Shown here piece by piece: positions 25,038-41,720 of a stretch of 43,324 nt of DNA. Numbering within the stretch: position 1 is the stretch's first letter; each line of letters begins with the position of its first letter. A program made the position numbers and the translations under genes. The notes beneath the pieces were generated by a model that was given only the letters and a program-made list of their open reading frames with translations, was not told the origin of the DNA and ran no database searches. The stretch lies in IMG/VR virus record IMGVR_UViG_3300020202_000038, positions 1-43,324 of that record; one strand, 5' to 3'. This DNA is from a virus.

Positions 25038-26645
25038 CTAGTCTTCGATCAACCTCCCCGCTCCCGCGTCCATGTTCTCTGAGTCCCTGAACGAAGAGCG
25101 TTCGTCTTCGGGGTAGAGCTTGTGTTCGAGCTCGTCCCAGAGGCTTTTGCGGCGCTCGCTGATAGCTGTCTCGGTGGTGATGAGGATGCCTGCTGCGGAA
25201 CAAGCGTTCTCTAGGGCAAGCCGCGTGACTTTTACGGGATCGAGAATGTCCTCGCCGATTTCGAGTGAGCCGCCCGCGTTCTCCTGAATCGTCTCGTAGG
25301 GTGCTTTGAGGGGCTCGTAGAGGATGTTGTCTTCCCCGAGCTCCTCGGCGACTGCTTTGAGAGTCAGCCCGCCGCCTGGTACTACCCCTTCTTCGATCGC
25401 TGCTCGACCAGCAGCTACCGCGTCTTCGATCTTGAGCTTCAGATACCCCCGCTCGGTCTCGGTCATGGCTCCGACACGAATGATGCCAACACCGGCTGCC
25501 AAGGAAGCAATGCGGCGTTTCAGTTTCTCTTTGAACATCGGATCTTTCTCAAGATCCAACTGCTCGGTGAGGAGTGCCAGGCGTTCAGCGGTGTTTCCCC
25601 GACCGCCTGTGATGATCGTGTCATCTTCGTTCGCTACTACCTTCTTTGCGAAGCCGAGGTGCGTCATCTGCACGTCCTTCAGCTTCATCCCGCGCCCTTT
25701 GTCTATGAATGCAGCATCACAGAACACCGCAACGTCTTCGAGTTCTTCTGAGGTGAGTGACGGGGCTTTGATGGCAAGGATCTTCAGGAGATTCGGCTGT
25801 CCTTTCATCGCCGCTATAAGCGTGTTTGCTATGACAGAAACAAAAGGCTTTGAGAACGGATCGGTGCCTTCAGAGTAGCCGCCGATGATGACGAGGGTAC
25901 GCTGCTGGTGCTCGGCGAGCTGCTTTAGAAGTGGCTGAAGGTCTTCGGCTTCAACACGTGCGTTCGTCACAAGAACAGGCGCGTCTTCCCACACTGCCTC
26001 CTTGCGAGGATTGGTCATCATGTACGGGGAGGCATAGGTGCCGAGGAACTTCATGCCCACAATCGTTTCCGTGGTGAGCCCGTACTGAGTAGCCCAGTTG
26101 TCTTCCACGGAGATATAGCCGTCTTTGCCTACGGTCTCAATCATCTCTGCGATAGTCTTGCCGAACTCGAGATTTTCAAGTGAGGTGGAGATGATCTTCT
26201 GTAGATCACCTGGGGCGAGTGGAGTTACCTTTGCTTTGAGTAGCTCAAGTGCCTTGGTCTTCGCCGCGTCAATGTCTCGCTTGAGCTGCATGGCGTTGAC
26301 GTTCTGCCCGAGAAGCCCTTCGCCGAGCATCTTGAAGCACTTGGAAATGATGGCAACGGCGATAACGACGTTGGTGGTGGTTCCATCGCCGGCCTGCTCG
26401 TTGGTCTTCATCGCAGACTCAACGACTGTCTGTGCACCAAGATCCTCTATCTCGTCTTCGAGGTAGGTGTGACGAGCAATAGACACGCCGTCGTTCGTGA
26501 CGAGCGGTGCCTTGTACTTACGGTAAATGATGGCGTTGCGGCCAGAAGGACCGATCGTTGCCCCGACAATGCGGCCGATGGTCTCTGCACCCTTCAAAAG
26601 CTTCGCGCGTGCACGGTCTCCCTCACACACAATCTTCTTTATCAT
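25038..26645 (-). CDS. groEL: Phage-encoded GroEL-type chaperonin
   Basis: 535 aa, clearly a group I chaperonin. NEQAGDGTTTNVV carries the ATPase Asp87 at the same position as in E. coli GroEL; KIEDAV corresponds to the Asp398 region, followed by EEGVVPGGGLTL. The order of equatorial, intermediate and apical segments is complete. The C-terminus lacks the usual GGM repeat and instead has about 45 charged residues (for example ELEHKLYPEDERSSF). No GroES-like gene is visible in the window. It heads the head-gene operon, has its own promoter and an AGGAAGG Shine-Dalgarno, and probably helps fold capsid or fibre proteins. Confidence 0.95.
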   Translation of the reverse strand: MIKKIVCEGDRARAKLLKGAETIGRIVGATIGPSGRNAIIYRKYKAPLVTNDGVSIARHTYLEDEIEDLGAQTVVESAMKTNEQAGDGTTTNVVIAVAIISKCFKMLGEGLLGQNVNAMQLKRDIDAAKTKALELLKAKVTPLAPGDLQKIISTSLENLEFGKTIAEMIETVGKDGYISVEDNWATQYGLTTETIVGMKFLGTYASPYMMTNPRKEAVWEDAPVLVTNARVEAEDLQPLLKQLAEHQQRTLVIIGGYSEGTDPFSKPFVSVIANTLIAAMKGQPNLLKILAIKAPSLTSEELEDVAVFCDAAFIDKGRGMKLKDVQMTHLGFAKKVVANEDDTIITGGRGNTAERLALLTEQLDLEKDPMFKEKLKRRIASLAAGVGIIRVGAMTETERGYLKLKIEDAVAAGRAAIEEGVVPGGGLTLKAVAEELGEDNILYEPLKAPYETIQENAGGSLEIGEDILDPVKVTRLALENACSAAGILITTETAISERRKSLWDELEHKLYPEDERSSFRDSENMDAGAGRLIED

Positions 26646-27381: not shown

Positions 27382-28101
27382 TTACACGGCTTCCACGAGC
27401 GTGTCGCAGACTTCGTGAAGGCGCATGGTGAGGGTGAGGTCTTCGGCAACCTTGGACTGCCCCAGCACCCACGTCGCGCAGTTGAACAACTTGAACACCG
27501 ATGCTTCGCCGCCCCATTGGTGCGGGGGTTCCCGCCACGTCCGCTCGATGTCGGCGATCTTCGTCACCGAAATCACTTCCTGGCGGTACAGCTCCATGAT
27601 GGCGTGATCGACGAGTTCGGGCGTCAAGTCCGTCTGCTTATAGCTGAGGAGCTTCGCTGCTTGCCGCGAGCGTTCCTCGTGGAGCGGTTCGACCAGTTCG
27701 GAGACGATCATCGGGAGTTCATGCCGTATTTTGGCCGTGTGCTTCCTGCGCACGACATGCTCGGCCACGAAGGCCAAGTTATCGCAGCAAAAGCACCTGC
27801 TGCCCACCCCGCATGACACCGGAAAACTCTTGTCTGCGGAATTCCGCATGATCAAAGTGTCCATGTAGTCGCCATAGTCGGACTTCAGCGTGAGAAGCCC
27901 GAAGTAGCGCAGCCCTTCCCGCGCGATCGCATGGTGTTCTTCCACGACTTCGTGGCCGTAGAAGCGGAGCCAGTGCTTCACCACGTCCACCAGATGAAAG
28001 TGGGGGATGGGAACGTGGGTCGGTGTCGGGGCGGGCGTGGGAACCTGGCGCAGTTGATCGTAGGTAACCAACTCCCCGCCAGCGTGCAAACAGAGCGTCA
28101 T
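27382..28101 (-). CDS. DUF932 family protein
   Basis: 239 aa. The family pattern is visible: YGHEVVEEHHAIAREGLRYF, then MRNSADKSFPVSCGVGSRCF, CCDNLAFVAEHVVRRKHTA. DUF932 proteins are common on plasmids, ICEs and phages and have no firm function. Higher GC and codon choice unlike the late genes suggest it came with the accessory island. Its leader carries a hairpin identical to the one before the CHC2 primase gene, so the two may be co-regulated. Confidence 0.85.
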   Translation of the reverse strand: MTLCLHAGGELVTYDQLRQVPTPAPTPTHVPIPHFHLVDVVKHWLRFYGHEVVEEHHAIAREGLRYFGLLTLKSDYGDYMDTLIMRNSADKSFPVSCGVGSRCFCCDNLAFVAEHVVRRKHTAKIRHELPMIVSELVEPLHEERSRQAAKLLSYKQTDLTPELVDHAIMELYRQEVISVTKIADIERTWREPPHQWGGEASVFKLFNCATWVLGQSKVAEDLTLTMRLHEVCDTLVEAV

Positions 28102-28118
28102 GGAAATCTCCTAAAGAA

Positions 28119-28135
28119 CCAGCGAGAAGTGCTGG
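28119..28135 (-). promoter_or_regulatory. Shared leader hairpin, copy 1 (upstream of DUF932)
   Basis: Minus strand CCAGC, 7-nt loop ACTTCTC, GCTGG, followed by TTCTTTAGGAG and the start codon 17 nt after the hairpin. The identical 17-mer occurs at 32082-32098 before the CHC2 primase. It could regulate translation or act as a small-RNA or protein target. Confidence 0.5.
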
Positions 28136-28257
28136 ACGCAGGACTGGTTAGCTGGGTCTTACTCTTGGATTCCTCGAAAGAAATCCACACTGCCTTATTA
28201 GTCGGCAGTACCCTCCAACCAGCCCTACGAAATAAACGCGCCTACTAAGCGCTCGGA

Positions 28258-28278
28258 GCAGGAAATCATACTTCCTGC
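28258..28278. promoter_or_regulatory. Perfect inverted repeat in the DUF932 upstream region
   Basis: GCAGGAA and TTCCTGC separated by 7 nt. It lies in the 257-bp noncoding gap between the stop at 28359 and the DUF932 start. It could be an operator or a hairpin. Apart from this, the terminator at 28311 and the leader hairpin, I see nothing definite in the gap; no clear copy of the common -10 box is present. Confidence 0.4.
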
Positions 28279-28310
28279 GTTCAACACTCCTCTTCTTTCT
28301 TCACCCTATC

Positions 28311-28340
28311 AAAAGCTCAGCCCCGTGCAAGACGGAGCTG
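28311..28340 (-). terminator. Rho-independent terminator
   Basis: Minus strand CAGCTCCGT, loop CTTGC, ACGGGGCTG (9 bp with one GU), then AGCTTTTG. It ends the operon 29496-28359. Confidence 0.7.
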
Positions 28341-28358
28341 GGGACAGCATTGCGCTGT

Positions 28359-31424: not shown

Positions 31425-32060
31425 TCAGCCTGCCTTCTTGAGCGGGATGACGTTTGTCTGCTTGGAAATGTTGTCGGGGAACTTGAGCACGGGTTGCAGC
31501 CCCGCCGCGAAGCCCATGAAGCCCGCGAGCTCGCCGTCCTTGTAGAGCGGGAACACCACACGTCCACGAAGCAGACCGCGCCCGTCGTAGCCTATGCCGA
31601 GGCTTTCGGCTACTTCGGGGGACAGGCCGAGTGCCTGGACAGCTTCATGCTCGTGCAGGAGCCTTGCAGCCACCCTTTCGAGCTTGTCTTCCTGGGGAGC
31701 CTGGGGCTCCGGCTTCGGGGCTGGCACGATCTTTGCTGTACTAGTACCGGTACCTTGTACCGTAGAACTGGTACCCGTACCCATTCCAGCCTGGTCGGCG
31801 ATGAACACGGCCGCGTCCTTCACCGGAATCCCCTCGATGTGCGAGACGAGGGCGATGAGATCCCCGCCCTTCTTGTCCGCGAAGCAGTAGAACGCGCCCT
31901 TGGACGGCGTTACCACCAGCTCACGTCCGCCCGTTGTCTTGCACGCGGGGCAGATTCCGCGGAGCTGACTTCCCGACGCTTTCATTTCTAAGCCGAGCAT
32001 GTCCACGACTTGCTCGATGCTGACGGCGCTCTTGAGAGCACCAAAATCCACGAAGGCCAT
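31425..32060 (-). CDS. CHC2 zinc-finger primase-type protein (truncated)
   Basis: 211 aa from the ATG at 32060, with Shine-Dalgarno AAAGGAG. Residues 8-90 match the DnaG zinc domain (RGICPAC ... GAFYCFADKKGGDLIALV). The second CxxC of the family is here CFAD: Cys59 is kept but Cys62 has become Asp. After a Thr/Pro linker, residues 125-211 resemble the start of a Toprim_N domain (LGIGYDGRGLLRGRVVFPLY). No catalytic TOPRIM acidic motif is present, so it is not a full primase. It may bind ssDNA or act with a host primase. Confidence 0.8.
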   Translation of the reverse strand: MAFVDFGALKSAVSIEQVVDMLGLEMKASGSQLRGICPACKTTGGRELVVTPSKGAFYCFADKKGGDLIALVSHIEGIPVKDAAVFIADQAGMGTGTSSTVQGTGTSTAKIVPAPKPEPQAPQEDKLERVAARLLHEHEAVQALGLSPEVAESLGIGYDGRGLLRGRVVFPLYKDGELAGFMGFAAGLQPVLKFPDNISKQTNVIPLKKAG

Positions 32061-32081
32061 GATGCGTCTCCTTTGAAAAGA

Positions 32082-32098
32082 CCAGCGAGAAGTGCTGG
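32082..32098 (-). promoter_or_regulatory. Shared leader hairpin, copy 2 (upstream of CHC2 primase)
   Basis: The same 17-mer as at 28119-28135 (minus strand CCAGC, ACTTCTC, GCTGG), here 21 nt before the ATG and followed by TCTTTTCAAAGGAG. Identity through both stem and loop argues for a common regulator. Confidence 0.5.
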
Positions 32099-32184
32099 TG
32101 GGGAGTCCCGCATTTTTAAGATACGCGTCGCTGCAGCAATTTGTACCCGTCGGTTGTCCCCCATCAGCACTCCTGTCTGTCAAA

Positions 32185-32274: not shown

Positions 32275-32466
32275 ATGGCGAATGGTGAACCCGGCCGCAA
32301 GCCGGACTACAAGGTTCTCGTCTCCCGCGAGGGGAAAGACAAGACGTTTTACAACCAGGTGGGCGTGGGCTGGGCGGTCAAGAACGACGGCATCAGCATC
32401 CAGCTCGACGCGCTGCCCGTGGATGGCAAGCTCGTGATGTTCCCTTTCCGGGAAGACGACAAGTGA
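32275..32466 (+). CDS. Small conserved mobile-element protein (63 aa)
   Basis: It has a good Shine-Dalgarno (AAGGAGATTTGAA before the ATG). The sequence pattern GKDKTFYNQVGVGWAVKNDG then ISIQLDALPVDGKLVMFP matches a small protein family that I associate with proteobacterial phages and ICEs; its function is not known. It is probably an all-beta fold. It is a single-gene unit with its own promoter and terminator, transcribed opposite to its neighbours. Confidence 0.75.
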   Translation: MANGEPGRKPDYKVLVSREGKDKTFYNQVGVGWAVKNDGISIQLDALPVDGKLVMFPFREDDK

Positions 32467-32471
32467 ACCAC

Positions 32472-32499
32472 GACGCCTCGAAAGGGGCGTCACTCTTTT
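32472..32499 (+). terminator. Terminator after the small rightward gene
   Basis: GACGCCTC, GAAA tetraloop, GGGGCGTC (8 bp with one GU), then ACTCTTTTG. Strong stem, medium U-run. It overlaps the last bases of the convergent replication-relaxation gene. Confidence 0.7.
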
Positions 32500-33350
32500 G
32501 ATAGGTCGAACTTTCCGTGCGCCGAATCCCACCCGTCGAGGATGTCGTTCAGAATCGGCGGGATTTTCCACGGTGAACCGAACGTTGGCAGCGTCTTGAA
32601 GAGGAATCGCTTCGAGAGCTTCGGGTCGAGTTGGTGCATTTCTTCCATGAGGCTGTTCTTGCGCGTCTCGTTCGTCGTGACTGTGAGCACCATGAGCTTC
32701 GGGATGCCCCACTCCTCGAACAACCTGCGTTCCATGACTTCGATGTAGCCCACGAGCTTCTTTCCGAAATCGGTCTGGTCGGTGGTGCGGTGGATTGGCT
32801 CGGTAGCGCGGTCGATTTCTACCGCGAAGAAACGATGCGAGTCCCCGTACCCTATCCCGAACAGTTCATCAGGGATGAGAGCCTTCGGGGAGATTTCCAG
32901 GCGCATCGAGGAGTCATGCCGAGAAAGGATGTCATGCCGCCCGACGAATTTCAGAGCTGCCGCGTCGAGACACATTTCCATCGAAGACATGACGCAGGCA
33001 CCCATGAGGCGATGCACAAAGGGGTCAGTGCGCTTCAGGTACTTCGAGGGCGTAATGAGAGCCTCAGATTTCTTGGTGAGGTCGTAGGTGATGAACTGAT
33101 ACCTGGCGTGGAAGTTGTTGAACTGCTCCGCAGGCCGCATCAAATAGCCCTCGTTGAAGAGGTCGGTGAGGCGGTGCTGGAAGTCGTTGAAGTCCTTGCG
33201 GCCTGAGTACGGGAAGAGGTAGTTGGTTGGCAGATGCCCGTGGCGGTGAATCGCGTTGAAAACAGCAATGTCACGCTCGGTTATTTCGAGCTTCTTTCCA
33301 AGCGACTGCGGCGGCGCGAAGCGTATGCGCCGCTTGAGTGTGTCGTGCAT
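32490..33350 (-). CDS. Replication-relaxation family protein
   Basis: 286 aa. The N-terminus LEITERDIAVFNAIHRHGHL then FQHRLTDLFNEGYLMRPAE is a winged-helix of the Replic_Relax type. The second half has DELFGIGYGDSHRFFAVEID, the nuclease-like core (D...E.D) found in this family, followed by KKLVGYIEVMERRLFEEWG. Replic_Relax proteins are typical of plasmids and integrated mobilisable elements and usually neighbour TraG/FtsK-like ATPases, as here. It probably binds an origin or transfer site. It starts 9 nt after the ATPase stop with a GAGGTATG context. Confidence 0.78.
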   Translation of the reverse strand: MHDTLKRRIRFAPPQSLGKKLEITERDIAVFNAIHRHGHLPTNYLFPYSGRKDFNDFQHRLTDLFNEGYLMRPAEQFNNFHARYQFITYDLTKKSEALITPSKYLKRTDPFVHRLMGACVMSSMEMCLDAAALKFVGRHDILSRHDSSMRLEISPKALIPDELFGIGYGDSHRFFAVEIDRATEPIHRTTDQTDFGKKLVGYIEVMERRLFEEWGIPKLMVLTVTTNETRKNSLMEEMHQLDPKLSKRFLFKTLPTFGSPWKIPPILNDILDGWDSAHGKFDLSKE

Positions 33351-33359
33351 ACCTCAAGG

Positions 33360-34886
33360 CTACCATTTACCTGCCTCTGTGCCATCACCTTCTTCGGGTG
33401 TGGATAGTTTCACGGGCAACGGTGAAGCGGCATGTTTCACATGAGACGCAGTAAACGCTATGGGCTTGATTTTGAGATTCAGAGGATGGTCGAGAAACCC
33501 ATGCCCGTACAGCGCGAAGTTGTAGTCCTGACGGTGAATGAGCTGGTCGGGATCGAGCTTAACAAGCCGTGCGAGTTTCTGTGCGTCCTCAGGTACCACT
33601 CTCCCCACGTACTTCGTTGCCATCGAAAGCACGGCCTGTTCTGTTGAGGAAGGAAACTGGCTCAAACGCTGGTGGCTCAAGGTCAAACACACCCTTGCTT
33701 CCCGTGCGCGGTCAATGATTTCTTCAATGTACTCATTCAAATACACGTCGCTCTCGTCAATGTAGACGAAGGCATACCGCTTGTTTTGTCGTTGCTTGAC
33801 GGCACTCGCCAGAAGCGCGATGACAAACCGCCCGATGAAGGGGGCAGCAAGTTCGTCAAATGAACTGGTATCAAGCAGAAGCACACGGCCGTCATCTATC
33901 ACTTCCCGCAAGTCGAGGGTTGTTTCACGGGAAAAGATGGCGCGAACAGTGTCGTCGTGCAAGAGTTTGTCAAAACGCCACGCGAGTTGACTGTCAGTGT
34001 CCCTGTATCTTGCCGGAGGGTGGGCAATGAGGTACTGCAACTCGGTAATGTTCTTGGCCTGCTTCGCACACTCCATGATGAAGGCCTGTTGTTTCGCGGT
34101 CAGCCCTGCTTCGAGGGATTCAAAGACATACAGGAGAAGTGAGGAGCTGAGTCGAAGGAGGTTTAACCCTACACCTGACCAATCGAAGATAGCCGTCATC
34201 CGGTCGCACGGGATTTGCGAGAGAGCGGGTACTAAATCGCCCTTGGGGGACATGACGGTGACTGAGGCATCGGTCTGCATGTCGTGGTGAACGAGCTTCT
34301 TTATGAGTTCCGACTTCCCCGTGCCTGAGACACCAGTGATGAGGGTGTGCTGCGGTCGCTTCTCTTTCGGGGTTTCGTAGGAGACTCTGAACTTCAGCAA
34401 GTCCCGAAACGGATGCGGGATGTAGGGCTGGACATTCGGCTCTTTGAGTTCGCGCAGTTGGTCTTGCGCTTCCCTGAGTTTGGTTCGCTCCCAGGCTACG
34501 TTCTCGCCCTTGTCGCGGTGTTCTATCTGGTAGTGGTACGTGCTGATTTGGTCTTTGAGGTAGGCCCGTTGGCTGACGTAGTAATCGTGGTGCCAGTTCT
34601 GTGCCAGCGAAAAGAGAAACGGGTCGTCGTCCTGAATCCCTGCAAGGGCTTTGAGCGTAGTGGTAAACGGCCCACGGGTAGGTTCATAGATGGGCGGCAA
34701 GCGAGAGAAGATGTAGACAAGCCCCTTGGCAAAGAGGAGCGGGTCATTTCCACGAAGGCCAGGGAAATTACCTTCAATCTCACTCTGCGCCATAACTGCG
34801 AGCACGGGAATGAGCGAATCCGGCAGGCGGCGTCCTCTGCTCTTCTGGTCTTCGATGAGCGGGTCGATGAAGTCACTCGGCTTCAC
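33360..34886 (-). CDS. TraG/HerA-type DNA-translocating ATPase
   Basis: 508 aa from a GTG at 34886, overlapping the membrane-protein end by 14 nt. Walker A is GVSGTGKS (185-192), followed by SVTVMSPKGDLVPAL. Walker B is FVYIDESDVYL (from 373), then ARVCLTLSHQRLSQFP, the sensor region of type IV coupling/HerA-FtsK ATPases. The N-terminal 160 residues are helical and charged. There is no TM segment; the adjacent membrane protein could supply one. It probably moves DNA with ATP. A phage with its own terminase does not need it for packaging, so mobilisation or segregation is inferred. Confidence 0.82.
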   Translation of the reverse strand: MKPSDFIDPLIEDQKSRGRRLPDSLIPVLAVMAQSEIEGNFPGLRGNDPLLFAKGLVYIFSRLPPIYEPTRGPFTTTLKALAGIQDDDPFLFSLAQNWHHDYYVSQRAYLKDQISTYHYQIEHRDKGENVAWERTKLREAQDQLRELKEPNVQPYIPHPFRDLLKFRVSYETPKEKRPQHTLITGVSGTGKSELIKKLVHHDMQTDASVTVMSPKGDLVPALSQIPCDRMTAIFDWSGVGLNLLRLSSSLLLYVFESLEAGLTAKQQAFIMECAKQAKNITELQYLIAHPPARYRDTDSQLAWRFDKLLHDDTVRAIFSRETTLDLREVIDDGRVLLLDTSSFDELAAPFIGRFVIALLASAVKQRQNKRYAFVYIDESDVYLNEYIEEIIDRAREARVCLTLSHQRLSQFPSSTEQAVLSMATKYVGRVVPEDAQKLARLVKLDPDQLIHRQDYNFALYGHGFLDHPLNLKIKPIAFTASHVKHAASPLPVKLSTPEEGDGTEAGKW

Positions 34887-35325
34887 GATTCTTCTTCAGA
34901 AGTTCGGCGATTTCTTGCTGCAAAGAGGGAGCGGGTGGAGGGGTGGGCGCGGGGGTGTTCTTTAGTGCATCTTGCGCGTCGAGGCATTCAGACTGTGCCT
35001 GTAGCTCAAGAAGACGGCGCGGGATGTAGATGTAGGTGTAGTAATACAGACACGCAGCTAAAACTGGGTAGAAGCACACGAAGACAACGAGCGCCCAGTC
35101 AGGGAGCGGGTCGCCTACTCGCAGAAAGTCCGGCCGATATTTGTATTCGATATACGCTACCGTGAGAAGAACAAGTTCAACACAGAAATCAAATTTGAGA
35201 TGAACTGAAAAGGGTACTCCGTCGGGATACCTTCGGTCGATGGCTGCGGAGACGCGAGGGGCGAACAAGGCGAACGAACCAACAACTAAGATGGTAAGAA
35301 GAACATAGGCAAAGAAGGTCTCCAT
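34873..35325 (-). CDS. Membrane protein of the ATPase cassette
   Basis: About 150 aa (ATG at 35325; a GTG 3 nt earlier is also possible). Three hydrophobic segments: FFAYVLLTILVVGSFALFAP, VELVLLTVAYIEYKY and WALVVFVCFYPVLAACLYYY. A cytoplasmic tail follows, with a Pro-rich linker (PAPTPPPAP) and a helix (LQQEIAELLKKNREAE). A membrane anchor with a cytoplasmic helix beside a TraG-like ATPase fits a docking subunit. The family is unrecognised. Confidence 0.65.
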   Translation of the reverse strand: METFFAYVLLTILVVGSFALFAPRVSAAIDRRYPDGVPFSVHLKFDFCVELVLLTVAYIEYKYRPDFLRVGDPLPDWALVVFVCFYPVLAACLYYYTYIYIPRRLLELQAQSECLDAQDALKNTPAPTPPPAPSLQQEIAELLKKNREAE

Positions 35326-35374
35326 CACGCGGTCTCCTGTCTTCTCTTGGGGCTTCGCTCTCGGAACGGTTGAG

Positions 35375-36154
35375 CTAGTTTATAGCCAACTCGATAGCCG
35401 TCGTCCATCCTTTGGTGTGGGCGGCGTAGCCGGAGTAGTCTGCGAGCACTTCCGCATCCTTGGCGGTGCAGTGGTGTCCCTGCTTGTCTTCGATGAGAAG
35501 CAGGCTGTTGCGCATCTTTTCTGGCACTTCATCAAGGAAGTTCACGCCCGCGATGAGGCGGTTCTGCCGGATGAGAGTTGAGTGTCCTGGCTGGGAATAG
35601 AAACCGAAATCCGGTATGACTACTGTGTGAGGGTACTGCGCGATGAACAGGTTTGCCAGCACGAAGCTCTCGAACTCGCCAAACTCGGCGCGATTGAGCC
35701 GCAGTAACACTACACCGTCGGCTGAAAAGTTTAGCGGCTTGCACAGAATGTCTTTGAGGTCAGGCGAGAACAGGATGTCGTCAAGGACACCGAGGGCTTC
35801 CGCAATCGCTGGGTCACGCTTGTTGCCTTTGATTTGGTTGAGGCGCGTGTGACTCAGGAGAAGTTTGGCGAGTGCTCTCCGGCCGTTGCGAACGGTGAGC
35901 GTGTTTTCTCCTTGCGGATACGCAGAGTAGATTGCGTTTGCGAGATTCCGTGCGCGGCGAGGGTCGATGTCTTTGAGAGGGTTGAAATGGTGTTTGGTAA
36001 CGTCGAAGTGAGTAACGTCCCAGGTCTTTGGAAAAGTGAGGGCGTCAATCATCTCCCCGTCGTCAACGAGGAGGAAGCGTCTCGGTCGATGGTGTGAGTC
36101 AAGTAAAAGGTTGAGGATGGACGACTTGTCCTTCCCTACCGTGAGGTGGTTCAT
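35375..36154 (-). CDS. Degenerate second HerA/TraG-like ATPase domain
   Basis: 259 aa from the ATG at 36154 (a TTG at 36166 is in frame, and the frame is open without another start to about 36233). It aligns by eye with the ATPase at 33360: LTVGKDKSSIL sits where the Walker A should be but lacks GxxGxGK. FLLVDDGEMIDAL corresponds to TVMSPKGDLVPAL, and HFDVTKHHFNPLKD to DWSGVGLNLL. No clear Walker B Asp-Glu is seen (VVIPDFGFYS). It is probably an ATPase-dead partner or a decayed duplicate. The upstream in-frame GLYLHQP suggests the start may be lost or non-standard. It has no Shine-Dalgarno and no obvious promoter. Confidence 0.6.
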   Translation of the reverse strand: MNHLTVGKDKSSILNLLLDSHHRPRRFLLVDDGEMIDALTFPKTWDVTHFDVTKHHFNPLKDIDPRRARNLANAIYSAYPQGENTLTVRNGRRALAKLLLSHTRLNQIKGNKRDPAIAEALGVLDDILFSPDLKDILCKPLNFSADGVVLLRLNRAEFGEFESFVLANLFIAQYPHTVVIPDFGFYSQPGHSTLIRQNRLIAGVNFLDEVPEKMRNSLLLIEDKQGHHCTAKDAEVLADYSGYAAHTKGWTTAIELAIN

Positions 36155-36180
36155 GGGCTGGTGCAAGTAGAGCCCGCGCC

Positions 36181-36474
36181 TTGCAGGGTGCTTGCCGCCA
36201 GCCCTGAAACAAGGTACAGGTCTGCAACCAGTCTACGGTAGCACCGCGCTTGGCGCGACGTGTATAAGTGCCGCATCCAGTCCGTCTGTGTGCCGTGAGG
36301 CCACGACCCCTGGGCTTCTCCGAGTGTCCGTTAGGACGCGAGGACTTCAGCCATCACTCGGTAGAGGGATGTGGGAGCACAGGGGTCGTGGGCGATAGCC
36401 CATGCGGACTGGTGCGGAATGGTGAGCCGTTAGGCGGTATGGTCAGCGTCTCGTCGCTGGGAAAAGCACCATAC
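36181..36474. ncRNA. Candidate structured noncoding RNA (about 295 nt)
   Basis: No plausible gene lies here, but the region folds densely. CCGCA-T-CCAGTCCG (36271-36284) pairs with CGGACTGGTGCGG (36405-36417). Inside it, CCACGACCCCTG (36301-36312) pairs with CAGGGGTCGTGG (36380-36391). Inside that, CCGAGTG (36320-36326) pairs with CACTCGG (36355-36361), enclosing GTCC-GTTA-GGAC. Side hairpins are CGCGC/GCGCG (36245-36257) and the nested GTATGGT/ACCATAC with CAGCG/CGCTG (36437-36474). CCGTTAGG occurs twice in loops. The strand is unknown; no tRNA, tmRNA or RNase P signature is recognised. Confidence 0.6.
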
Positions 36475-36501
36475 AGATTGGTGGTGCGTGTGTGGATGCA
36501 C

Positions 36502-36532
36502 AAAAAAAGGCCGGAGTGGTTAGCTCCGGCCT
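36502..36532 (-). terminator. Rho-independent terminator after the AlpA-like gene
   Basis: Minus strand AGGCCGGAG, 7-nt loop, CTCCGGCCT, then TTTTTTG. Perfect 9-bp stem with a long U-run, 11 nt beyond the stop codon. It isolates AlpA from the structured region and the ATPase cassette, so these need another promoter or readthrough. Confidence 0.92.
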
Positions 36533-36543
36533 CGGTAGCTCCG

Positions 36544-36795
36544 CTAGGAGCTGCTTCGTTTGCTGGCACGCTTGGCAATCCAGTCAAGCACCTCGGCTTC
36601 CAGGTACCCGCGACGACACCAAACTTGATTCATTCCTGCTCGCTTTCCTTTCTTGCAGACCTTCAGGTCTGACAATGAGAATGGCTTGGGGAACGTCTCG
36701 TCGTAGGAATCGTCGTCTGGGTCGTTCTTCCTGTAAATCGTGGCGCGGGACAGGCTCGTCAAGTCGCTCACCTGCTTCACGCTTAGAACACGCAT
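36544..36795 (-). CDS. AlpA/excisionase-like MerR-type HTH protein
   Basis: 83 aa from the ATG at 36795 with Shine-Dalgarno GGAGAG. The sequence VLSVKQVSDLTSLSRATIYR (HTH) followed by FPKPFSLSDLK, RRGYLEAEVLDWIAKRA is typical of AlpA-family regulators and small excisionases. It is divergent from the integrase across a 300-bp region with repeats, so it probably acts as excision factor and/or regulator of the integrase. Confidence 0.85.
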   Translation of the reverse strand: MRVLSVKQVSDLTSLSRATIYRKNDPDDDSYDETFPKPFSLSDLKVCKKGKRAGMNQVWCRRGYLEAEVLDWIAKRASKRSSS

Positions 36796-36845
36796 TGCAA
36801 CTCTCCAGTGAGCGTTGCAACGGCCTTTCAAGCGGGATGCTCTAA

Positions 36846-37006
36846 GGCGTCTCAATTGTACTCGTGCTGTAACAGGAACGGTGTGGAGGCTAGAGTGAAG
36901 CTAAGAGTACCGTAACCCGTTGATTTCGTTCTGCTTTTCCCAGCTTGACAGGTTACACAAACAATAGCATGATGGGCGTCTCAGGGCGACTCATTGCGTC
37001 TCTAAG
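36846..37006. repeat. GGCGTCTCA-type repeats between AlpA and integrase
   Basis: GGCGTCTCA occurs at 36846-36854 and 36975-36983, with near copies GGCGACTCA (36985-36993) and GCGTCTCTAA (36996-37005). The last is flanked by TCTAAG, which also begins the first (36841-36846). The cluster lies in the region typical for excisionase and integrase arm sites or attP. A TTGACA at 36945-36950 with CATGAT 17 nt later may be a further promoter. Confidence 0.45.
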
Positions 37007-37027
37007 TCCTTGATTTTTAAAAGGAAA

Positions 37028-37056
37028 TTGACGAGTGCAGTGTCAACGACTACACA
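37028..37056 (+). promoter_or_regulatory. Candidate integrase promoter
   Basis: TTGACG (37028-37033), 17-nt spacer, TACACA (37051-37056). The start point would be near 37063. The leader has AAGGAG at 37084-37089 before the ATG at 37096. Confidence 0.5.
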
Positions 37057-37095
37057 TACCGTATCGCTGGTACGTGTTGTGAAAAGGAGTCTAGG

Positions 37096-38211
37096 ATGAA
37101 GCTAGGATTGACAGACCTCGCGGTGCAGAGGTTGAAAGCTCCGGCATCGGGACAAGTAACGGTGTTTGACACGAATCTGCGCGGGTTTGGTGTGCGACTG
37201 TCACAGGGCGGCTCGAAAACGTGGGTGGTGGTGACGGGGAAAGAACGGCGGCTCACAACACTTGGACGGTACCCCGACGTTTCCCTGAAAGACGCTCGCA
37301 CGGCGGCAAAGAAGGTGCTGGTCGCCCCGCCTGTTCTTGGTGTCTCCACGCTCACCTTCCCCGAAGCTCGCACCGCGTTCCTCGAAGCCAAGAAGAAGAA
37401 GCTCAAAGCTCCCTCGATTCGGCTCTACACCACCTACCTCAACTTCTTCACCTGGACAAAGAAAGTCCACCTCATCACGAAAGAGGACATCAAGGCACGG
37501 CTGAAAGAGTTGGATGGGAAGAAGACGGCGCAGAACGTCGCCCAGCAGATCCTCAAGACCTTCTTCATGTGGTGCGTGAAAGAGGAAGTCGTAGACCGGA
37601 ATCCCCTGGCGAGGGCTGAGGCTCCGAACAAGCTGAGGTCCCGCGACCGCGTGCTGACCGACGAGGAACTGAAAAAGATTTGGGACGCCACTGACTATGA
37701 CTTCGGGCGGCTGGTGCGAGTGTTGATGCTCACGGGTGCCAGGAGGGAAGAGATAGCACGGTACGGGTTTGGCAAGACGCACCTTCACTTTGAAGACACA
37801 AAGAACAACCGTTCGCACACGCTTCCCATCACGCCGCTTGTGGCGGAACAGTTGCCAGTGAACGGGGCGGTGCATTGGTCGAATGAAAAGAAGAAGCTGG
37901 ACAAGCTCTGTGGAGTGGAGGACTGGCGGCTGCATGACCTTCGCCGGACGCTTTCAACGAACATGGCGCGGCTGAAGGTTCCCATCCACATCACCGAAAG
38001 AATCCTGAACCATGTACAAGGGACGCAGACGGCGGTGAGTTTGATTTACAACCGTTGGACTTACGAGGAGGAGGTGCGGGAAGCTCTCCTGACCTACGAG
38101 GCGTTTATTCTTGGGCTGGTGCGAGCTTCTTCCAGTACCAGTCGTAGAACTGTTGAACAGCGTAAGTGTGTTGATGAAGGAGACGTTCTTCTTCGTCCAT
38201 CGAACGGATGA
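37096..38211 (+). CDS. int: P4-type tyrosine integrase
   Basis: 371 aa. The N-terminal DUF4102-like arm-binding domain (VFDTNLRGFGVRLSQGGSKT) is followed by a core-binding domain (about 90-185) and a catalytic domain: TGARREEI (Arg), LHDLRRT (His280, Arg283), LNHVQG (His306) and LIYNRW (nucleophile Tyr318). All catalytic residues are present. It integrates and excises the phage genome, probably with the AlpA-like factor. The Shine-Dalgarno is AAGGAG. The last 107 nt overlap the convergent zincin-like gene; the residues coded there come after the catalytic fold. Confidence 0.92.
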   Translation: MKLGLTDLAVQRLKAPASGQVTVFDTNLRGFGVRLSQGGSKTWVVVTGKERRLTTLGRYPDVSLKDARTAAKKVLVAPPVLGVSTLTFPEARTAFLEAKKKKLKAPSIRLYTTYLNFFTWTKKVHLITKEDIKARLKELDGKKTAQNVAQQILKTFFMWCVKEEVVDRNPLARAEAPNKLRSRDRVLTDEELKKIWDATDYDFGRLVRVLMLTGARREEIARYGFGKTHLHFEDTKNNRSHTLPITPLVAEQLPVNGAVHWSNEKKKLDKLCGVEDWRLHDLRRTLSTNMARLKVPIHITERILNHVQGTQTAVSLIYNRWTYEEEVREALLTYEAFILGLVRASSSTSRRTVEQRKCVDEGDVLLRPSNG

Positions 38212-39803: not shown

Positions 39804-40006
39804 GGTGTCCGGGGCTTCGCGCACAGACAGCAGATGGTGTGAGTGTCTTTCGGAAGACCACAGGCCGGAGAGTCGCCTTGGTTCCAGCAATGGGTGTGGT
39901 CGTAGAGGTAGTAGTCGGTCATACCTAGTTCGGCGGCAAGAGAGGTTTTCACCTTGTCTATTTTTTCTTGTCGGCCGCTCCCCAGCCATCGTCTCTGTGT
40001 GCTCAT
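39800..40006 (-). CDS. Small Cys/His-rich protein (68 aa)
   Basis: The ATG at 40006 overlaps the previous stop (GGTATGA). A basic helical N-terminus (RRWLGSGRQEKIDKVKTSL) is followed by a Cys/His region (DHTHCWNQGDSPACG, ICCLCAKP) that could bind zinc. No family is recognised. Confidence 0.6.
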   Translation of the reverse strand: MSTQRRWLGSGRQEKIDKVKTSLAAELGMTDYYLYDHTHCWNQGDSPACGLPKDTHTICCLCAKPRTP

Positions 40007-40338
40007 ACCTTGTTCAGCGCAATCCACAAGCGGGCGACGGCTTCTTCTGGGGAGTGGCCGCTAATCAACTTCCAGTATCCAATCGTCCGCATACCACCCT
40101 TAGCAGTCCACCGCCTGTAAGTGCTATCGGGTGTGCGCTTCGAGTGGTAAACGAGGTCGCGGAAGTCATCTCCACAAGCCTCTATCAGCTCTTCGAGGGT
40201 GGGGACGTAGGCTCGCGTTTTGTGCGTACAGTCACTTGGCGCGTCCCATCCTTTGCAGTTAGGAGTGTGCAACACGTACCCGTCTCCTTCTTGAGGAAAC
40301 CCAGCATCCTTCAACTGCTTTGCTAGTTCGTAGGTCAT
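40003..40338 (-). CDS. Conserved-type phage protein of unknown function (111 aa)
   Basis: The ATG at 40338 overlaps the previous stop. TYELAKQLKDAGFPQEGDG, VPTLEELIEACGDDF and SGHSPEEAVARLWIALNKV follow a pattern common in phage early genes, with no known function. The end IALNK resembles proteins that appear next to nucleotide-metabolism genes. The long upstream extension of this frame is a shadow. Confidence 0.7.
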   Translation of the reverse strand: MTYELAKQLKDAGFPQEGDGYVLHTPNCKGWDAPSDCTHKTRAYVPTLEELIEACGDDFRDLVYHSKRTPDSTYRRWTAKGGMRTIGYWKLISGHSPEEAVARLWIALNKV

Positions 40339-40469
40339 ACGTCTTTCCACATGGCTGCGGAAGTGATGCAGAAAAGTGCGAACGCTCCTGCCCAGAGGGA
40401 CTCTTGCCACAAGCCAAAGAAGTAGGCAGCAGAGCAAGCCTGTATGACGTATCCCATGCGGGTTCTCAT
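40335..40469 (-). CDS. Tiny membrane protein (44 aa)
   Basis: The ATG at 40469 and TGA at 40335 both form ATGA junctions with the neighbours. The sequence MRTRMGYVIQACSAAYFF is followed by GLWQESLWAGAFALFCITSA, giving one or two short TM helices, and ends WKDV. The coupling strongly suggests translation. Function unknown. Confidence 0.55.
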   Translation of the reverse strand: MRTRMGYVIQACSAAYFFGLWQESLWAGAFALFCITSAAMWKDV

Positions 40470-40813
40470 ACCTCCTTGCTGTTAGAGCGGGCTGCTTCGA
40501 GGAGTGCTTCTGGGACAACGTAGTCGCCTAGCTTCACTCCCTCGGGGATTATTTTCCCGCCTTCATAACGGAAGGATTCCGCCGAGCCTGTTCTAAGGGC
40601 TTGAGCTTTGATGTACTCCACCGCCTCATCCCTGCCACGCTGTTCGGCGGCGGTGATGAGGGATTCGATGAAGGACTCCACCTTAGAACGACAGTATGCT
40701 TGGTCGTCATAACTATCCCTAAATACAAGAGCGTGACTTCCTATGTTCCCAGTGAAATCAGTCCAGTCGAACATTTCGTAAAGTTCTCCTCTCCAGTCTT
40801 GTGATGGGGTCAT
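40466..40813 (-). CDS. Unknown early protein (115 aa)
   Basis: 115 aa, soluble and helical in the middle (KVESFIESLITAAEQRGRDE, AVEYIKAQAL). The C-terminus is GVKLGDYVVPEALLEAARSN. It starts with an ATGA overlap on the DUF5664 gene and ends with GGAGGTATGA. The pattern EAAEQRGRDEAVEYI is common in small phage early proteins, but no function is known. Confidence 0.65.
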   Translation of the reverse strand: MTPSQDWRGELYEMFDWTDFTGNIGSHALVFRDSYDDQAYCRSKVESFIESLITAAEQRGRDEAVEYIKAQALRTGSAESFRYEGGKIIPEGVKLGDYVVPEALLEAARSNSKEV

Positions 40814-41272: not shown

Positions 41273-41363
41273 TTATCCACAGGGGCGCGGAAGTGGGCTT
41301 GCACGCATTTCTGAACGTGCTTTACTTATCTACAGAAGACTCATTCCGTACTGGGTAGTACGC
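41273..41363. promoter_or_regulatory. Divergent control region: DnaA boxes and palindromes (origin or operator candidate)
   Basis: The 273-bp gap 41232-41504 contains no gene. It has a perfect DnaA box TTATCCACA (41273-41281), a near copy TTATCTACA (41326-41334), an interrupted palindrome GCACG/CGTGC (41301-41320) and CGTACT-GGGT-AGTACG (41347-41362). AGTACG recurs near 41451, and a TCCCC/GGGGA hairpin (about 41461-41490) precedes the first rightward ATG. The layout suits a switch region with operators and possibly the replication origin. Confidence 0.45.
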
Positions 41364-41504
41364 GAAGTCCACGCCACACACCTTTTCTTCATTGAATCTG
41401 GCACGGGCAGACGGCTATCTGGTACGGAGTGAGCCTTCTATTAAAAGCTAGTACGTTGTTCTCCCCGCGTTCTTACTAGCGCGTGGGGAACAGCGAAAAA
41501 CACC

Positions 41505-41720
41505 ATGAATAACTGCGACAAGTGCGACAACGGAATAGTGCATGTGCCGAATGGGCTGGATGACTCAGACCCAGAGTTCTGCGACTGTGAGCTGGGTATA
41601 GCTGCCGCGCAAGACGAACTGGCGGCTGCGCTTCACAAGCTCCTCGATGAAGTCCGCGCCCTGAAGTACGCAATGGAGGAAGTCCACGGCAAGTTAGAAG
41701 AAATCACGAAGAGCGTATGA
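41505..41720 (+). CDS. Small zinc-ribbon protein (71 aa)
   Basis: First gene of the rightward operon. It has CDKCDNG and FCDCELG, a C4 ribbon, then a coiled-coil-like helix (AAQDELAAALHKLLDEVRAL). It could be an early regulator or replication accessory. The stop overlaps the next start (GTATGA). Confidence 0.7.
   Translation: MNNCDKCDNGIVHVPNGLDDSDPEFCDCELGIAAAQDELAAALHKLLDEVRALKYAMEEVHGKLEEITKSV

Follow-up and report, generated by a model that had tools for sequence, protein, structure and literature searches.

We describe a structured intergenic element of about 300 bp (36175..36475) in a 43,324-base IMG/VR virus record, the whole of which is referred to here as the window. The element stands out by its fold, has no match in Rfam and has a syntenic counterpart in a relative, G043 (IMGVR_UViG_3300021057_000003, locus L213). 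It lies beside genes for a coupling-protein-like ATPase and a PF13814 protein, and we put the chances at about even that it serves this nicking/coupling module as its cis-acting DNA site, comparable to an oriT or a strand-initiation origin.

Genome setting

The window carries genes for a terminase, a portal protein, GroEL, an integrase and AlpA. The element sits between the minus-strand gene annotated as an AlpA-type regulator or excisionase (36544..36855) and a minus-strand ATPase/T4CP/relaxase operon. The intrinsic terminator of the AlpA transcript (36507..36533, minus strand) forms the upstream edge of the element in the sense of the operon. On the other side, ATPase 1 (35375..36166) has a TTG start and a degenerate P-loop, and is separated by a small probable membrane protein (34873..35328; recognised by inspection of the sequence, with no family match) from a VirD4/TrwB/HerA-like, coupling-protein-like ATPase (T4CP, 33360..34886). 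The HerA/TrwB-like family matches of this second ATPase were below the Pfam cutoffs, and its match to TrwB in the PDB had an E value of 0.001. The PF13814 Replic_Relax protein (32490..33350) scored above the cutoff of that family and is a candidate MOBC-like relaxase. A CHC2 zinc-finger primase-like protein (31425..32183) is likewise encoded on the minus strand, and a P4-type tyrosine integrase (37096..38211) on the plus strand.

Several further features of the window were recorded. A small ORF (32275-32466, plus strand) between the relaxase and primase genes opposes the operon direction. The phage-encoded GroEL-like chaperonin (25038-26645) has a 64% identical copy beside a related terminase in locus L003. 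GCGTCTC direct repeats surround the gap between alpA and the integrase gene (36847, 36976 and 36996, within 36846-37010), with a further copy at 36446; they are possibly integrase arm or Xis sites. GTTGCAA is repeated close to the alpA start. The terminase-based genome scan recovered no host clade and no host genome was found; Patescibacteria, guessed as the host in the initial annotation, would be consistent with the style of the proteins.

Structure of the element

The element is unusually structured on both strands. RNA fold z-scores were −4.75 and −4.62, and 0 of 200 dinucleotide shuffles folded as well on either strand, so that the dense non-coding structure described in the initial annotation, after the AlpA terminator and beside a plasmid-like ATPase cassette, is real. 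Folded as single-stranded DNA, the element reached z-scores of −6.4 (minus) and −5.1 (plus). The stretch 36301-36500 (plus) is the energy minimum among all 200-nt windows scanned, and no local inverted repeat of the whole window is stronger than the inner pair of 16-nt arms (94%); stronger z-scores occur elsewhere in the genome, at 28102-28358 and 41305-41504. All stems that had been named before were recovered at their places. The extent of about 295 nt given earlier is indeed non-coding and structured, but the element reaches further left, to 36175.

This left part is the start-proximal hairpin of 83 nt (36175..36257, minus strand), with the helices CGCGCC/GGCGCG and GGTGCT/AGCACC, whose mean pair probabilities are 0.78-0.97 over both strands; it stops 9 nt short of the TTG codon of ATPase 1. 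The central domain (36271..36417) combines an outer stem of 13 bp, interrupted by one bulge, with side hairpins, an inner 12-bp stem and apical hairpins. The outer stem pairs 36271-36275 with 36413-36417 and 36277-36284 with 36405-36412, at a mean pair probability of 0.97-1.0. The inner stem (36301..36391) is the perfect inverted repeat CCACGACCCCTG/CAGGGGTCGTGG, with arms at 36301-36312 and 36380-36391 and pair probabilities near 1 over most of its length; no local perfect inverted repeat in the 43-kb genome is longer, and the one other of 12 bp has a lower G+C content. To the right, nested hairpins (36437..36474) place GTATGGT/ACCATAC (36437-36443 and 36468-36474) around CAGCG/CGCTG.

Short hairpins with four-base loops are repeated within the element. 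GTCC-TAAC-GGAC (36326..36337, minus; GTCC-GTTA-GGAC on the plus strand) and GCC-TAAC-GGC (36426..36435, minus; GCC-GTTA-GGC on the plus strand) each carry one copy of CCTAACGG, and these are the only two copies in the window by a post hoc count. The sequence reported earlier as repeated in two loops, CCGTTAGG, has copies at 36328 and 36427 and no others in the window. The two UAAC loops noted previously on the minus strand are present, and GCC-TCAC-GGC (36292..36301, minus orientation) adds a third loop of the UMAC type. Copies of GCAnCCAGTC lie at 36224 and 36273, with an inverted one at 36415.

The initial annotation recognised no known RNA class and proposed an Rfam search, which gave no covariance-model match to the element at the gathering threshold or at E<=10; the sole resemblance at E<=10 was that of the AlpA terminator region to AgvB. 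It had also named a conserved protein-coding frame among the findings that would speak against it. The ORFs overlapping the element had no protein family match and the minus frames contain stops, and a coding explanation was rejected on these grounds. Readings as an integron attC site, a tRNA or a tmRNA were dropped. No promoter consensus was found in the element, nor in its G043 counterpart, and the GC skew does not switch clearly at this position.

A syntenic counterpart in a relative

G043 was found by an integrase scan (integrase 68% identical) and has in common with the window an early module of integrase, AlpA-like HTH gene, ATPase 1, T4CP, Replic_Relax and primase. Identities are 27% for ATPase 1, 27% over 353 aa for T4CP, 28% for Replic_Relax and 31% for the primase, and counterparts of the window genes 27382-28101 (57%) and 40003-40518 (44%) are also present, while the structural genes are far more diverged from those of the window or unrelated to them. 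The ATPase 1 homologue has an intact P-loop (GVPGTGKS).

The gap upstream of ATPase 1 in G043 (L213:6985-7334) showed no similarity to the window element by blastn, and is itself strongly structured (RNA fold z −5.5/−6.1; single-stranded DNA z −5.6). Two perfect stems, of 10 bp outside and 14 bp inside, are nested in it like those of the window element, and nowhere else in the 50 kb of G043 is there a longer local inverted repeat or a lower fold energy. A hairpin right before the ATPase start, GCATGTACC..GGTACATGC, is the counterpart of the window hairpin 36175-36257, and the terminator of the upstream gene borders the element on its upstream side, as in the window. G043 has only two copies of CCTAATCGG by a post hoc count, one in the loop of the terminator and one in the element's last hairpin; no direct-repeat array was found in the G043 element. 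Position and architecture are thus conserved between the window and G043 with turnover of the sequence, a comparison of two sequences that falls short of covariation proof. A second structured gap of G043 (L213 6030-6390; z about −5.1/−4.1) lies between an HNH gene and a coiled-coil ORF.

The comparative depth is two, the window and this one syntenic relative. The element had no blastn match among phages and plasmids, and a scan of 2.9 million viral contigs for the inner-stem pattern gave 8 matches, four of them copies of one sequence, with no relative among them. Pattern scans with peptides of ATPase 1, T4CP and the relaxase, in which the patterns were exact, gave no match. Relatives found through the terminase have related structural genes and mostly lack the cassette.

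The PF13814 protein and its relatives

PF13814 was matched by 9 of 9 relatives of the window relaxase, in which H113, D161, E178 and Y202 (window numbering) are invariant. In an AlphaFold2 model (pLDDT 71), an HTH domain at the N-terminus accompanies a PD-(D/E)XK-like core; the best solved folds for the model, with modest scores, were those of FokI and the nicking enzyme N.BspD6I. The model suggests that the protein is probably a DNA-nicking enzyme, with a winged HTH and a PD-(D/E)XK-like nuclease domain. MOBC relaxases are members of the PD-(D/E)XK superfamily, akin to restriction endonucleases, and TraX of pAD1 has an N-terminal winged HTH (PMC12857230). A covalent DNA intermediate has not been observed for MOBC relaxases (PMC12857230; PMC9299015). 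PF13814 has been named MobC among the relaxases of IMEs (PMC5357655). No case of a MOBC-type relaxase in a phage was found in the literature searched.

Distant relatives with T4CP and Replic_Relax were recovered, including G015, G044, G045 and G047-G051. In G045, G047 and G048 the relaxase gene is followed downstream, at a distance of 0.6-1.1 kb, by the top inverted repeat of the record; in G049 that repeat is located upstream, about 1 kb from the gene. Occurring on either side, these repeats do not have the character of a leader belonging to a single gene. In G044, G050, G015 and G051, the last three of which are fragments, no top repeat lies near the relaxase. With the window left out, 5 of 9 cassette genomes have their top repeat no more than 4 kb away from the relaxase (p 0.037); among the five records that reach 37 kb, the number is four (p 0.003). 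Both p values are optimistic, as the first cases were already known when the test was devised. Cassette-free phages have similarly strong repeats, located elsewhere, so that it is the location of the repeats and not their mere presence that is special. The relaxase-side elements have no strict common sequence. By a post hoc count, CCTAACGG has two copies in the 8.3-kb G047 locus, both in the gap after the relaxase.

Two of the recovered loci deserve separate mention. Positions 1-252 of G015 (L194), upstream of its TM-T4CP-Replic_Relax cassette, contain the 3' half of a tRNA, from the anticodon loop to CCA, which resembles tRNA-Lys(CUU); by its sequence, this gap is probably an attP or an att junction. 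An alignment of G015 as an RNA homologue of the element was ruled out, the aligned part being this tRNA half. Locus L202 (IMGVR_UViG_3300009537_000513) looks chimeric, with a fragment of a TraG/VirD4-like gene joined to unrelated tail genes.

Strand and pairing characteristics

The element had been described as an unassigned RNA; as a structure it is still unassigned, but action as RNA finds no support, given the absence of a sense-strand advantage, the low share of G.U pairs, the failure to find a promoter consensus and the position of strong repeats on either side of other PF13814 genes. The controls were tmRNA, 6S, RNase P and three 16S domains of E. coli, together with two leaders of the window (28102-28358 and 41305-41504). 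In the sense strand, tmRNA, 6S, RNase P and two of the three 16S domains had a z-score advantage of 1.1-1.8, the 16S 3' major domain being the sole control without one (5 of 6 fold better in sense), and the two leaders had advantages of 1.8 and 2.5 z units. The six relaxase-side elements ranged from −2.1 to 0.02 (p 0.006 against controls and leaders). G.U pairs made up 3-8% of the sense pairs in these six elements and 10-17% in the eight RNAs (p 0.0003), a comparison biased downward for the elements by their selection through exact inverted repeats; the low share is an indication of pairing as DNA, short of proof. Taken together, the lack of a sense advantage, the low G.U share and the changing gene side of the repeats speak for Watson-Crick pairing of DNA and make a leader RNA less likely.

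The loops are not decisive, as they fit a stable RNA type in one orientation and a stable DNA type in the other. Tetraloops of the UMAC type are a known stable RNA type, and C(GNNA)G hairpins are a stable family in single-stranded DNA. In the minus orientation, three of the four tetraloops of the element are of the UMAC type (UAAC, UAAC and UCAC), and in the opposite orientation all four are C(GNNA)G.

The two leaders are observations in their own right. The gap upstream of gene 27382-28101 (28102-28358, minus strand) has z-scores of −5 to −7 in sense and about −3.4 in antisense and a main helix with G.U pairs, and is RNA-like in the sense strand; this leader is not conserved in G043. The plus-strand leader 41305-41504 (z about −6.2 in sense, −3.5 in antisense) ends at the start of gene 41505-41720; five G.U pairs occur in its 20-bp helix, which is accompanied by a second long hairpin.

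Function of the element

As the cis-acting site of the module, the element would be bound and nicked, within or beside its repeats, by the PF13814 protein with its predicted winged HTH and PD-(D/E)XK-like nuclease, a combination also found in MOBC relaxases. The strand unwound after nicking would then fold into the nested hairpins. These may flag the strand for the VirD4/HerA-like ATPases, for transfer or for replication or segregation of the phage genome, and may mark it for second-strand priming by the CHC2 primase. What the analysis shows is the structure, its conserved position in one relative, its tendency to neighbour PF13814 genes, the lack of an RNA signature on one strand, and the family and predicted fold of the nuclease; the binding, the nicking, the folding of the single strand in vivo and the purpose of the element are inferred. 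The adjacent PF13814 candidate relaxase and the adjacent coupling-protein-like ATPase expected of a MOBC-type oriT are both present; no nic site was identified in the element, and five-fold direct repeats, as bound by pAD1 TraX, were not found in it. Likewise present is one characteristic of an sso, a multi-hairpin single-stranded DNA fold in a nicking-gene module with structure kept over sequence, as seen between the window and G043.

That the element is instead a structured 5' leader RNA on the minus strand, controlling transcription or translation of the ATPase-T4CP-relaxase operon, is a possible but less probable reading. It would suit the position immediately upstream of the operon and after the upstream-gene terminator, the last hairpin adjoining the ATPase start (both seen in the window and in G043), the UMAC-type loops on the sense strand and the two further sense-strand structured leaders of the same phage. 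Against it, neither homologue folds better in sense, G.U pairs are few in both, no promoter consensus was found in either, and the strong repeat lies downstream of the relaxase gene in other cassette phages. A plus-strand non-coding RNA, for example one antisense to alpA or one linked to conjugation with a role like that of the sgm-sRNA of SGI1, appears unlikely. The antisense strand does fold slightly better in the window and in G043, and sgm-sRNA, encoded beside oriT, is essential for mobilisation (PMC9299015); the advantage is small, however, the G.U share is about as low as in sense, and no promoter or terminator was found at the element borders on the plus strand.

Two further readings concern DNA. 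That the element is functionless spacer from a host lineage rich in short hairpins would agree with the gaps of G045 and G047, which are packed with short GC hairpins, and with the other structured gaps of the window. This seems very improbable, however, as in the window and in G043 alike the longest local inverted repeat and the energy minimum are both located in this syntenic gap. We also think it very improbable that the element is part of the phage attachment site or of a region bound by the integrase or excisionase. It neighbours alpA and the integrase gene, and the 13-mer AATGGTGAGCCGT (36418-36430) equals the tRNA 3' end within the attP-like region of G015, a match with a chance probability of about 0.002 for this pair by our own estimate. 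On the other hand, the window has neither a T-arm nor a longer tRNA identity, the 13-mer is shared with G015 only, and the orientation to the cassette is unlike that in G015. Integration moreover needs no 300 nt of nested stems, and the gap 5' of the integrase gene is located elsewhere (36856-37095).

Relation to known systems and implications

The modules of pAD1 (TraX) and CloDF13 (MobC) resemble that of the window in having a PF13814-type protein with a winged HTH and a PD-(D/E)XK-like core, encoded next to a coupling-protein-like ATPase and to intergenic DNA that contains inverted repeats. Unlike these MOBC modules, the window module resides in the genome of a tailed phage, together with genes for terminase, portal and integrase. 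Its element has nested stems with long loops, and neither a nic site nor a direct-repeat array was identified in it. The sso elements of rolling-circle plasmids and of ICEBs1 are comparable as multi-hairpin structures of a few hundred nt in a nicking-gene module, in which the sequence changes and the structure is kept; the sso of pBAA1 retained its function when its sequence was altered and its structure kept (PMC4595007). The window differs in encoding a primase and ATPases alongside its putative origin. The sgm-sRNA region of SGI1 is also a foldable non-coding stretch next to mobilisation genes, but sgm-sRNA has been proven to be an RNA and is excised from a primary transcript, whereas the window element has no strand bias. 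GOLLD, ROOL, HEARO and other large Rfam RNAs are, like the element, large multi-stem intergenic elements in phages; unlike them, it had no covariance-model match at the thresholds used.

More broadly, we tentatively suggest, while considering it rather doubtful, that the window belongs to a family of integrating tailed phages with a complete MOBC-like nicking/coupling module and its own folded cis-acting DNA site. If so, phages would start replication or cell-to-cell transfer by means of a relaxase of the restriction-nuclease type acting at an origin that is defined by structure and not by sequence. Little is known of MOBC-type relaxases. If the element is a MOBC site, tailed phages would rely on nicking and pumping machinery of the conjugation type, with an origin maintained by shape and not by sequence; this would explain the replication or movement of a phage from an uncultured host and would provide a directly testable DNA substrate.
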